Positions 15,970 through 35,828 of a stretch of DNA of 64,000 bases are shown here, in pieces. Positions within the stretch are counted from its first letter, which is position 1, and every line of letters begins with the position of its first letter. The DNA comes from Methylobacter sp. S3L5C (GTDB lineage Bacteria > Pseudomonadota > Gammaproteobacteria > Methylococcales > Methylomonadaceae), in contig NZ_CP076024.1 of NCBI RefSeq assembly GCF_022788635.1, positions 3,945,503 through 4,009,502 on the forward strand, given 5' to 3'. Under the pieces are notes generated by a model, which was not told the origin of the DNA, ran no database searches, and saw nothing but the letters and a program-made list of their open reading frames with translations. A program made the translations under genes and the position numbers.

Positions 15970-17757
15970 TTATTTTTTGTGTTTTAGGACTTGAGCGGCA
16001 TATACCAAAGCGGCAATACCAGTACGAATTGTACCTATATCAACACCTTTGATTAATTCCCGTAATTTTGTCATTTGCTCTCTGATTATTAATTCCTCGG
16101 ACTCCGTTATTTGAGTGTAATAAATATTCAATGAGAGTTCGATTTCAGAAGCAAGGACTTCGGCGTGGTTACGCACGTCCGCAAGTTCGCGCAGTCTGTG
16201 TGTTGCCTCGGCATAATCCTCGGCACGTTTTATCATACGGCTAATTTCATTCTCACCAAGGCTGGTGCTACCTTCGATTCTTATCTGCTGCTCGTTACCG
16301 GAGACGATATCTTCGGCCATTACAGTGATGATTCCATTGGCATCAATATCGAAGGTAACATCAATCTCAAGCAAACCACGCCGCACTGGTGGCAAGTCAA
16401 CAAGCACGAACGTACCTAACGATTTATTAAAGGCAGCCATCTCCGACTCACCTTGGAGAACGTGAATTTCTACCGAGTCCTGATTATCCTCGGCCGTTGT
16501 AAATGTTTGTGTTTTACGCGTTGGAATACTGGTATTTCGCTCAATCAGTTTCGTGAAGACACCACCCTTGGTCTCTATCCCCAACGAAAGCGAAGTGACA
16601 TCAAGTAACAGAACATTGGTAATTTCCCCACAGAGAACCCCAGCCTGAATTGCCGCACCAATAGCAACGACCTCATCGGGATTAATGTCCTGGTGCGGCT
16701 CTTTACCGATCAACGCCCTAACTTTGTCCTGAATAGCCGGCATACGGGTCATGCCACCAACAAGTACGACGTGATCAATCGCCTCGGCGTTAATGTTTGC
16801 ATCAGCGAGGGCCTGCATAACCGGCCTTACAATACGGGCGATCAGGGCTGCGCTTAGTTCGTTTAACTGGGCACGGGTAAGTTCGAAGTTAAGGTGCTTT
16901 GGGCCTGCTGCTGTAGTTGAAATGGACGGCAGATTAATATGCGTCACCAGCACCGTTGAGAGTTCAATTCTGGCTTTCTCTGCAGCAGCATAAAGGCGCA
17001 ACATGGCAAGCGGATCTTTGGCCAAATCACATGCTTGCTCACGATTAAACTTGTCAAGTAACCAATCAACGATAGCTTTATCAAAGTTATCGCCACCCAA
17101 ATGGTTATCACCGCTGGTAGCCTTAACCTTGAACAGGCCGGCATCAAGCTCAAGGATTGAAACATCAAAAGTACCGCCACCGAGATCAAAGACAAGAATC
17201 ATCTGGTTAGCTGTTTTATCCAGTCCGTAGGCGAGCGAAGCGGCAGTCGGCTCGTTAATAACGCGCAGCACATTAAGCCCGGCGATTCTTCCGGCATCCC
17301 GGGTGGCTTTGCGCTGTGCATCATTAAAATAAGCAGGGACAGTAATGACAGCCTCATTCACGCAATCACCCAAATAAGTCTCGGCATCAGTTTTCAATTT
17401 CTGCAGGATCATTGCACTGATCTCTTGAGGTGCGTACGTTATCCCTTTAACAGTAACGATAACATCACCGCCATCAGCTTTTCCGACAGGATAGGCAACA
17501 ATGGCAATTTCCTCGGCGACCTCATCCCACTGGCGACCCATAAAGCGTTTTATTGAAGTGATGGTGTCCTTTGGGTTATCGGCATGCTGTTGCTTGGCAG
17601 ATAAGCCTACCAGCCGTTGCCCGTCTTGTGTGAAAGCAACCACGGACGGCGTCGTCCGCTCGCCCTCTGCGTTCGGAATAATGAGTGGCTTTCCGCAAAC
17701 AAGCACAGCCATGCAACTATTCGTAGTTCCAAGATCAATGCCGATTGCCTTATTCAT
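15970..17757 (-). CDS. Hsp70-family chaperone paired with a GvpL/F-J-domain protein
   Basis: This DnaK-like chaperone has 595 residues, about 45 fewer than housekeeping DnaK. The nucleotide-binding domain (1 to about 370) shows [40 protein letters not shown] and [11 protein letters not shown]. The substrate-binding domain starts with [17 protein letters not shown]. The helical lid is short and lacks the EEVD-like acidic tail, ending VLKHKK. The ATG overlaps the TGA of the upstream gene in an ATGA, so translation is coupled. The partner carries a J-domain with an intact HPD, the signature of an Hsp70 co-chaperone. This is probably a specialised second Hsp70 with a narrow client range; the housekeeping dnaK-dnaJ-grpE set is not seen here. 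Confidence 0.9.
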
Positions 17758-18842
17758 ACAGCGGACTCAGATTTATTGATGCGAGCCAACACCGCGCCCT
17801 TGTTATCAACAATAAAAGATTTCTCGACGGCCTCCTTGTTAAAAGAGTATTCATTAAACTTTAATGGCTCCCCAAATTTTGGCAAACTATGACAATACGC
17901 GCTAACAATTTCGTAGGCTTCAACGATGTCTTTGGTACGTTGCGCAGCTTTTGTGTCATCAGGATTTCTATCTGGATGATTAGCCAAAAGCAACTGTCGA
18001 TAAGCCGATTTTATACTCTCCCAGGAAGCCTGCTCGGGTAACTGCAATAGCTTTCGTGACTTGTCTACCATCAAAAAATTACCTTGATTCAACTCGATAT
18101 TAACAAAACTATACACTGGCAAGGGTCCTATATAACGAAAAGTTAAATAATCTTCAAGCTCAGTCGCTATAGCGTCAACAGAATCGTCAAATAATGACTC
18201 CTGCTTTTTTTCAACCAGATAACTTCTGTTAAAAATCATTGCCTCTGTTTTGAGTGGTGCATCCAGATAGTCTTTTGATAGCGGTGATAACGTGCCATGG
18301 ATATCCGCAACCAACTTACGCTTTTTCACCTCAGCTGCTTCAAAAAGCAGCTTGCCAGTCTGTACCGCGTCTGTACCCGCCAAGTCAGGATTGCTTTTGA
18401 CGATATCCTGAAGTATCTTTGGCAGCTCCCACGAGGCTTGAATTACCAGCTCCATCGTCCCTTGCAATCTGTCAAGGCAGCTTCTTAATTGAATATAAGC
18501 CTGCTCCAGAACCTTTTCAACCGCTTCATTACTGCTGGCTGTAAAACCGAATTTTAGTGGCAGCATTCCACCGCTGCCGATCTTTTCAAAGAGGAACGAA
18601 TTGACCTGTTGATACTTTAGCAGATATGCCTTGTAACTTTCTTGTTGTTGTTCGGTTATTCCTTCAAGCGGCAAATCAGGAACGAGTTGGTCAATATCGA
18701 TGGCGCTCACAACTGCGGCAATATCCCGGTAACAGACAACTTCAAGAGGTGCCGCATTAATTCCGCCCGCCTGGTATTGAGCCAAGTCCGGCATTTCTGA
18801 GCGATTATCGATTGTCGCATAAATAAAGCGCTTTAATTCCAT
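17754..18842 (-). CDS. GvpL/GvpF-family domain fused to a J-domain
   Basis: This protein has 362 residues from the chosen start (an upstream Met at 18878 adds 12 non-conserved residues). Residues 1 to about 255 match the GvpL/GvpF gas-vesicle accessory family: MELKRFIYATI at the start, ISAIDxDQLVPDLP-like middle, GGMLPLKFGF, and the closing PLPVYSFVNIEL. Residues about 262-318 form a J-domain (WESIKSAYRQLLLANHPDRNPDD) with HPD at about 289-291, followed by a 45-residue tail. GvpF/L proteins help gas-vesicle assembly, and J-domains activate Hsp70 ATPase. The gene overlaps the Hsp70 start by four bases. No gvpA or other gas-vesicle gene lies in the window, so the client is unknown. Confidence 0.88.
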   Translation of the reverse strand: MELKRFIYATIDNRSEMPDLAQYQAGGINAAPLEVVCYRDIAAVVSAIDIDQLVPDLPLEGITEQQQESYKAYLLKYQQVNSFLFEKIGSGGMLPLKFGFTASSNEAVEKVLEQAYIQLRSCLDRLQGTMELVIQASWELPKILQDIVKSNPDLAGTDAVQTGKLLFEAAEVKKRKLVADIHGTLSPLSKDYLDAPLKTEAMIFNRSYLVEKKQESLFDDSVDAIATELEDYLTFRYIGPLPVYSFVNIELNQGNFLMVDKSRKLLQLPEQASWESIKSAYRQLLLANHPDRNPDDTKAAQRTKDIVEAYEIVSAYCHSLPKFGEPLKFNEYSFNKEAVEKSFIVDNKGAVLARINKSESAV

Positions 18843-19194
18843 ACCTGTTACCTCACAACTAACGGATAAAAAATGCAATTATTCACGGCGGTTTTACCGC
18901 CATGCCCTAACCATTATAATTCCATGACCAAGCTCAGGAAATCCGATAAGCTTGCCTCCATTTTTGGAGCATGATGCGCTTGGGGCGAAACACTGTCAAA
19001 CCGGGATTGGTTCAGATGACAAAATTGCCTTGATTTAAATGAGTTTGATAAAGTGCAACCTGTCTTGCTTTTGGTCGATACCAATATTGCAAAGAAATTT
19101 TCTGTCACGGAAATACTGGTATTATAGGGATTTATAGCCAACTAAAGCTCCAGATTTCTGTTCCTGAAATTGATCAATATCTCAAGGAGAAAAG
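18843..19194. other. Divergent intergenic region upstream of the GvpL/F-J gene
   Basis: Minus-strand TATAAT (18918-18913) may be the -10 for the GvpL/F-J operon. Between it and the start codon is a hairpin GGCGGT-TTT-ACCGCC (18887-18901, extendable by G-U pairing), which could be an operator or leader hairpin. The rest shows no gene. DUF4870 on the plus strand has a good AGGAG site at its right edge. Confidence 0.45.
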
Positions 19195-30372: not shown

Positions 30373-30491
30373 CGCTTGGCAATTCCCTACTTTCGCATGG
30401 CAAACTGCCACACTATCATCGGCGCTAAGCGGTTTCACTTCCGAGTTCGGGATGGGATCGGGTGGTTCACGCTCGCTATGGTCACCAAGCA
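30373..30491 (-). rRNA. rrf: 5S ribosomal RNA
   Basis: The minus strand reads TGCTTGGTGACCATAGCGAG at the 5' end, then CCGATCCCATCCCGAACTCG and GAAGTGAAACCGCTTAGCGC, and closes with GTAGGGAATTGCCAAGCGC. The terminal helix (GCTTGG with CCAAGC) is complete. About 119 nt; last gene of the operon. Confidence 0.95.
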
Positions 30492-30717
30492 AACTGGTGT
30501 CGCCTCAGGCTATTTTATTTGCCTGTCGACGGTCTTCGCTGTGCGGTTAAACACAACGCTGGAAATCTGTAACACTTTTTTGGTTAGCTTCATATCAACT
30601 AACTTTTTGCTGCTTTTTTTGTGTTCTTTTTTACAGTGATTAGCGATAATCGGCTGGCCAGAACAGTTATTGCTAACCGTCCCGGCGTATAACTCGCCCA
30701 AACTGATTGGGTGTTAT

Positions 30718-33610
<2,893 letters not shown>

Positions 33611-33998
33611 ATATAACCCCAATAAGTCTGTTTTCGCCAACCAATCAGCCAACAGGGTATTTTCTGTTGCTTGACTGGCCGGTTAACAGCATTACGTGTT
33701 ATACCGATCAGCTTTCTTAATCGCTTTTTTCTGTTTTTGAGAACTCATTCGCGTGAGCATCTGTGCTTTTGTATACCAACAAGTTTTGCCAATTAATTGC
33801 TTAATCCGGCAAGGCTTGCTACTATCCGCTGACACTGTCGCTGCACGCGAACTCGTTGCGTAATCTTGTCACCTTTACAGATCAAGATTACGTTGTTACA
33901 GATTTCCAAATTGTTAAAGAGCTATTCGTGTATTCAATAAATACACCAATTCTATAAGGTCTCTGCCGATTCTTAAGTGAATCGAAACGTTATAGAAT
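33611..33998 (-). other. Internal transcribed spacer, tRNA-Ala to 23S
   Basis: This 388-base spacer contains a boxA-like antitermination site (minus-strand AGCTCTTTAACAA at 33911-33923) and A/T-rich processing-stem sequence before 23S. No further tRNA is seen. Confidence 0.7.
33911..33923 (-). promoter_or_regulatory. boxA-like antitermination site in the spacer
   Basis: The minus-strand sequence AGCTCTTTAACAA matches the rrn boxA core (TGCTCTTTAACA) that loads the Nus antitermination complex before 23S. Confidence 0.65.
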
Positions 33999-34074
33999 TG
34001 GTGGAGCTAAGCGGGATCGAACCGCTGACCCCCTGCGTGCAAGGCAGGTGCTCTCCCAGCTGAGCTATAGCCCC
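33999..34074 (-). tRNA. alaT: tRNA-Ala(TGC)
   Basis: The minus-strand gene has an acceptor stem GGGGCTA/TAGCTCC, D-arm AGCTCAGCTGGGAGAGC, anticodon loop CTTGCAC with TGC, T-arm GGTTCGATCC, and an encoded CCA. 76 nt, within the 16S-23S spacer. Confidence 0.97.
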
Positions 34075-34148
34075 AATGTGTCTTGCTTATGCTTGCGCTG
34101 CTGCTTACTGACATCCCCGGGCCACATCACGCTTACCTTGCGGCAAGA

Positions 34149-34225
<77 letters not shown>

Positions 34226-34293
34226 TGGGCTCATACTGCGTCTGATCAAAATAATTTGTTGTGGATACGCATGATGACGATAGACCATCTTTG

Positions 34294-35828
<1,535 letters not shown>

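Follow-up and report, generated by a model that had tools for sequence, protein, structure and literature searches.

HscB and HscA form a dedicated J-protein/Hsp70 pair for the Fe-S scaffold IscU. For gas vesicles, it is an open question how the very hydrophobic shell protein GvpA stays soluble and enters the shell. In the accessible parts of two studies, GvpF is the primary partner of GvpA and is proposed as its chaperone, and GvpL/F proteins contact many Gvp proteins (PMC9501494, PMC11445434). The ATP-using factor discussed for assembly in the available text of PMC11445434 is the AAA+ protein GvpN, and the portions seen of a study of Serratia sp. ATCC 39006 list F2 and F3 among the genes required in that strain (PMC4982088). 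In the literature covered, mainly non-subscription and in part excerpts, no description of a GvpL/F–J-domain fusion or of its pairing with an Hsp70 was found; judged by their titles and the first lines of their abstracts, the papers listed that link gas vesicles or GvpF with DnaJ, DnaK or Hsp70, among them a Streptomyces pH-shock study, do not deal with such a fusion.

Such a fusion is encoded in Methylobacter sp. S3L5C, whose genome consists of one contig of 4.82 Mb. The window, i.e., the whole stretch of DNA analyzed, comprises 64,000 nucleotides at C1:3945503-4009502. The genome is close to that of M. psychrophilus Z-0021, which is reported to form gas vesicles, in numbers that rise between 7 and 20 degrees C, and to lack them at temperatures under 7 degrees C; strain S3L5C is also named as a psychrophile in the accessible part of the same paper (PMC12810054). 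In window coordinates, the locus comprises the following features:

17754..18842, minus strand: GvpL/GvpF–J-domain fusion gene, 362 aa (ATG at 18842, stop at 17754)
18099..18830, minus strand: GvpL/GvpF domain, probably of the GvpF type, residues 5-248 (PF06386; Foldseek matches 6l5d/4qsg; GvpF-type grouping in the tree)
17901..18053, minus strand: J-domain, residues 264-314 (PF00226; J-domain structures matched)
17970..17978, minus strand: HPD motif, residues 289-291 (invariant in the aligned fusions)
17787..17882, minus strand: C-terminal extension after the J-domain, residues 321-352 (alignment of fusions)
17754..17757, minus strand: ATGA, the 4 nt shared by the stop codon of the fusion and the start codon of DnaK2
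15970..17757, minus strand: DnaK2, a second full-length DnaK-type Hsp70, 595 aa (Pfam HSP70, 759 bits)

The preliminary description of this DNA had placed a fusion with an intact J-domain and an HPD motif near residue 290 at 17754-18842; these coordinates hold, with the gene on the minus strand and the motif at residues 289-291. The fusion matches PF06386 over profile positions 2-245 of 245 with 139.1 bits (Pfam cut-off 23.6) and PF00226 with 49.3 bits (cut-off 27.8), and the HPD motif is invariant across 16 aligned fusions. The J-domain is the sole part that matches canonical DnaJ; the fusion reaches 40.8 bits against the 377.2 demanded by TIGR02349. An AlphaFold model built with a 16-row alignment has a mean pLDDT of 82.5 and a pTM of 0.70, with values below 50 at loop 56-59 and in the final 15 residues. 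In a Foldseek search, the model retrieved 6l5d and 4qsg, crystal structures of GvpF from Anabaena and Microcystis (E ~3e-14), at a TM-score by target of 0.74-0.78, consistent with a GvpF fold, and more weakly J-domain structures including the DnaK-bound 5nro_B (E 6e-3 to 4e-2, probability 1.00). The protein is thereby confirmed as a genuine combination of a GvpF-like fold and a J-domain. It has the family and fold of GvpF (PF06386; 4qsg, 6l5d) and groups with that type in the tree; unlike GvpF, it adds a C-terminal J-domain and is the fourth GvpL/F protein beside the three of the gvp cluster, and unlike the cluster GvpF proteins it shares a two-gene unit with an Hsp70 at a distance from that cluster. 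The C-terminal extension is conserved in the Methylococcales fusions, with some residues invariant, and absent from in-cluster fusions elsewhere; it could contact DnaK2 or the client.

DnaK2 lies directly downstream on the same strand, its start codon overlapping the fusion stop. It scores above both general NCBIfam DnaK cut-offs (853.1 versus 648 bits; 831.6 versus 822.55) and below the HscA cut-offs (599.9 versus 708.55; 597.7 versus 620; 397.4 versus 743). Its alignment with E. coli DnaK spans residues 1-590 (1-597 in the E. coli protein), the nucleotide-binding, substrate-binding and lid regions all being present, and K70, T196, R165, N168, T171 and D386 are invariant in nine orthologs; these residues align with E. 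coli DnaK sites needed for ATP hydrolysis, for docking of the J-domain and for the linker. The only other full-length DnaK of the genome, 641 aa long, stands beside a grpE-like gene and is of the housekeeping kind. In a tree of 12 of 13 DnaK2 and 17 of 18 other DnaK sequences (one of each was dropped by a start-motif filter), DnaK2 forms a clade separate from housekeeping DnaK (SH-aLRT 100), and it lacks the C-terminal tail found in the housekeeping rows. On these two grounds, the idea that DnaK2 is a recent copy of the housekeeping gene was rejected. In outline, the pair resembles HscB-HscA, its closest working analogue, in joining a J-protein with a client-specific domain to a second, specialized Hsp70; it differs in that the client-binding part here would be GvpF, not the HscB domain, and in the failure of DnaK2 to reach the HscA thresholds.

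A GvpF-type domain, a J-domain and a private Hsp70 next door together suggest that a bound shell protein is handed over to DnaK2. We hypothesize, with a probability of about 0.7, that the fusion and DnaK2 form a J-protein/Hsp70 machine dedicated to gas vesicles and acting on GvpA or its relatives. The GvpF-type domain would bind one of the gas-vesicle proteins, with the hydrophobic GvpA of the shell, or the related GvpA2/GvpA3, as the most likely candidates; the fused J-domain would stimulate the neighboring DnaK2 and pass the client on; and the shell protein would be held soluble and assembly-competent until its insertion into the growing vesicle. The pair would work alongside GvpF1/F2/F3, the ordinary GvpF proteins encoded in the gvp cluster. 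The preliminary description had overlooked DnaK2; the pairing favors its suggestion that the fusion delivers a client to Hsp70, and a client unrelated to vesicles is not supported.

The same description had stated that no gvp gene is nearby, which holds locally for PF06386 and PF00741. The genome-wide search that it proposed, however, recovered five GvpA-family (PF00741) and three further GvpL/F (PF06386) genes, all at C1:1.001-1.015 Mb, so that the pair lies megabases from a complete gvp cluster, which that description had missed, of the same chromosome. The cluster (L048) reads gvpA x3, gvpC-like, gvpN, gvpV, gvpF1, gvpG, an ArsA-type ATPase gene, gvpA2, gvpK, gvpX, gvpA3, gvpY, gvrA, gvpH (Hsp20), gvpZ (CDC48-type AAA), gvpF2, gvpF3, gvrB and gvrC, where names follow position and, where scanned, Pfam, with V, X, Y and W assigned by place only. 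The three tandem gvpA genes (L048:15615-16337) encode an identical 72-aa protein. In gene set, order and the presence of three GvpF proteins, the cluster matches that of Serratia sp. ATCC 39006 as far as the accessible parts of the sources describe it (PMC4982088; gene list in PMC9501494); the part of the gene list seen (PMC9501494) has neither a J-fusion nor a DnaK. The possibility that this genome is devoid of gvp genes was accordingly rejected: near 1.0 Mb it has a complete cluster of the Serratia type, in which three GvpL/F proteins of the ordinary kind are encoded. A complete and co-regulated cluster with its own GvpF/L had been named beforehand as evidence against the earlier proposals, and the cluster found does contain its own GvpF/L. 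A role in gas vesicles is not contradicted by one more GvpF, linked to an Hsp70, in addition to the three ordinary GvpL/F proteins.

Several cluster genes are chaperone-like, namely those for the ArsA-type ATPase, Hsp20 (GvpH) and the CDC48-type AAA protein (GvpZ). The ArsA-type ATPase has two domains (L048:10014-11927; PF02374, 372 bits) and occupies the gvpW place. A scan for sigma-54 sites returned nothing upstream of 13 fusion genes, nor upstream of those gvpA and gvrA genes that were included, and so had no power. Words shared among the upstream regions of this genome were near chance; no common promoter motif emerged, which shows nothing either way.

To assess how the fusion is distributed, a profile built from eight fusions was run on 311 Methylococcales genomes (E <=1e-20). 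The fusion was detected in 14 of them, in 2 of 50 genera (eight genomes in the genus of the window and six in genus g44). All 14 are among the 33 genomes that carry gvpA, and the fusion was found in 0 of the 278 gvpA-negative Methylococcales genomes (hypergeometric 1.2e-15, with genomes treated as independent though related). Within the genus, it was present in 8 of 13 gvpA-positive versus 0 of 20 gvpA-negative genomes among those listed (p 9e-5). A family-level search gave full-length matches in 3 of 151 genomes, all gvpA-positive, and gvpA is present in all 8 genomes of the named fusion loci, which belong to the 14. M. psychrophilus Z-0021 carries the pair, with 89% identity for the fusion and 92% for DnaK2. 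The pair is missing from 19 of the 33 gvpA-positive genomes and is therefore not required for gas vesicles generally. GvpL/F genes occur in 31 of these 33, mostly two or three besides the fusion, and in neither G095 nor G022.

The position of the pair relative to the gvp genes is variable. In G242 (L013), the gvp cluster ends in genes 84% and 76% identical to GvrB and GvrC of the S3L5C cluster, and the pair lies ~0.4 kb beyond them on the same strand. In G142, cluster and pair share one contig and occupy opposite strands, with ~27 kb between them. In G233, the pair is close to the dut-argB-proC region that borders the gvp cluster in G142, and the gvp genes are on other contigs. The stretches read around the pair in the remaining pair-bearing genomes contained no gvp gene. 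As a separate observation, an extra gvpA-family gene with a GvpF1-like gene nearby is found at G142:C149:4291-5784, on a contig different from that of the main gvp genes, and G233:C1 and G239:C83 have a similar arrangement.

This distribution bears on the earlier suggestion of a repurposed GvpL/F chaperone, whose client would be unrelated to gas vesicles. The location of the pair outside the gvp cluster of its own genome would fit that explanation, as would the distance in the tree between its GvpL/F part and the three in-cluster copies. Against this, gvpA accompanies the fusion in 14 of 14 genomes, none of the 278 gvpA-negative genomes searched in the order yielded it, and the fusions outside the order sit in gvp clusters, which makes such a client very improbable. 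A function unlinked to gas vesicles was rejected on the co-occurrence of fusion and gvpA. The other earlier suggestion, that the gene belongs to a gas-vesicle assembly system from which it lies remote, is supported by the same co-occurrence and by the related fusions inside gvp clusters.

The association of the fusion with DnaK2 is constant in the genomes of the order that were searched. DnaK2 directly follows the fusion in 14 of 14 fusion-bearing Methylococcales genomes, a count that includes G238, where the contig ends inside dnaK2, and G203, where the contig start cuts the fusion. The junction is a 4-nt overlap in 12 of the 14 and a 5-nt gap in two (G206, G208). A DnaK2 profile was searched against 78 chosen genomes, comprising 33 gvpA-positive Methylococcales, 6 gvp-carrying genomes outside the order, and 20 gvpA-negative genomes of the genus and 19 of the family. 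Scores at the DnaK2 level, above 1100 bits, were obtained in 13 of the 78, every one with the fusion, and the next-best scores, at 793 bits and below, belonged to housekeeping-type DnaKs. DnaK2 was thus found in 0 of the 64 fusion-less genomes checked, among which G244, G247 and G254 yielded no DnaK whatever and are uninformative. Fusion and DnaK2 distances correlate (r 0.95, 66 pairs), as expected from the common descent of neighbors, and for this reason the correlation is not taken as evidence of contact.

To extend the analysis beyond the order, GvpL/F genes were sought in wider samples, in which 4 of 369 genomes from the class and 5 of 398 from the phylum gave matches; setting aside the S3L5C genome and G192, of the same order, left six genomes outside it. 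In G355, G447 and G761, a GvpL/F–J fusion is located inside the gvp cluster, with Pfam DnaJ scores of 38.3 for G355, 33.0 for G761 and 27.1 for G447, the last slightly below the cut-off of 27.8. G866 and G882 have two GvpL/F genes each and no J fusion. In G955 (L142/L148), the J region of a GvpL/F–J relative seems, by eye, to be broken by a frame change, possibly an assembly error. A further fusion, WP_015497776.1, lies in the gvp cluster of plasmid pOA238_160 of Octadecabacter arcticus 238 (DnaJ 28.0 bits), retains the HPD motif and is annotated in the plasmid record merely as a GvpL/GvpF family protein; the available part of the Octadecabacter genome paper names gvp genes and makes no mention of a J-domain (PMC3646047). 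A loss of the J-domain in all relatives, the other finding named beforehand as adverse, is not what was seen: the domain is present in 14 of 14 fusions of the order, and outside it that of G955 seems broken.

These in-cluster fusions (WP_015497776.1, G355, G447, G761) have the same order of two domains and the HPD motif, and their GvpL/F parts group with the S3L5C fusion; they differ in lying inside gvp clusters, in having no adjoining DnaK and in ending without the C-terminal extension. No DnaK was found in the gvp clusters of G355, G447, G761 or Octadecabacter arcticus. G355, G447 and G761 have one DnaK each at E <=1e-120, so a J-domain there would need the housekeeping DnaK. The in-cluster fusions without a neighboring DnaK, together with the mostly extra-cluster location of the Methylococcales pair, count against a dedicated machine.

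The ancestry of the GvpL/F part was addressed with a tree of 36 domains, from which the J parts had been removed and in which 11 of the 17 full-length fusions known were used. A single branch (90/59, 88% of bootstraps) separates the 11 fusions from the other domains, a grouping that makes a single origin of the fusion likely. They group with Halobacterium GvpF (90/85), apart from Halobacterium GvpL and the F2/F3 rows; support in this tree is moderate, with some long branches, and with that degree of support their GvpL/F part appears to be of the GvpF rather than the GvpL type. Just ahead of the conserved YSF/HSF end, every fusion has GPL, as does the non-fusion G882 protein; most of the other sequences have GPW or GPV there. 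A J-domain tree of 17 rows (11 fusions and the 6 of 24 DnaJ loci that passed the filter) carries long-branch warnings and does not settle the single origin.

The type of the domain also bears on the identity of the client. The pair might serve gas vesicles by acting on another assembly factor (GvpN, GvpG or a GvpJ/GvpS-type protein), or in the dismantling or repair of vesicles, an explanation that fits the same fusion-gvpA co-occurrence data and agrees with the many Gvp contacts of GvpL/F proteins in the accessible parts of PMC9501494 and PMC11445434. We consider it unlikely, given that the GvpL/F part groups with GvpF, the reported GvpA binder, and not with Halobacterium GvpL or F2/F3.

Selection on the pair was estimated from dN/dS, silent sites being saturated in the more distant pairs. 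Relative to the 89%-identical M. psychrophilus copy (L010), the value for the fusion is 0.16 overall, with 0.14 for the GvpL/F part, 0.08 for the J part and 0.58 for the tail, and that for DnaK2 is 0.12. In the closer pairs L012-L013 and L015-L016, the fusion has overall values of 0.21 and 0.14. Both main domains of the fusion are under purifying selection; the tail is looser, with parts invariant. A stress-chaperone pair that hitch-hikes or was co-transferred with gvp, its GvpF part a relic, would be compatible with the canonical Hsp70 sequence of DnaK2 and with the habitats shared by the gvp-cluster genomes of the order. In the nearest pair, however, the GvpL/F part is constrained like the rest (0.14 versus 0.16 for the gene), the model keeps the GvpF fold, and J fusions recur in gvp clusters elsewhere, leaving this account the most far-fetched of those considered.

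Returning to the proposed GvpA-directed machine, the pair may well represent an Hsp70 system devoted to a single client, the shell protein of an organelle, in which GvpF-J and a private DnaK chaperone GvpA. An Hsp70 step would be ATP-driven and is not named in the assembly models as far as these were accessible. The joining of GvpF to a J-domain and its own Hsp70 yields a testable prediction, namely that GvpF-bound shell protein is handed to Hsp70. If true, this would offer a handle on assembly and possibly a helper for producing gas vesicles, which serve as acoustic reporters, in foreign hosts. More widely, GvpF-J proteins in other gvp clusters would mean that several groups of proteobacteria couple the assembly of gas vesicles to Hsp70.

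Two further elements were observed in the window. The leader of the fusion gene contains a near-perfect palindrome, CATGGCGGT-AAA-ACCGCCGTG (18884-18904, minus strand), which folds as a hairpin and is followed by a T-run ~10 bases on; M. psychrophilus has the same element, which may be an attenuator or terminator-like. A complete rRNA operon (5S, 23S, two tRNAs, 16S) is located at 30374-35828 on the minus strand.
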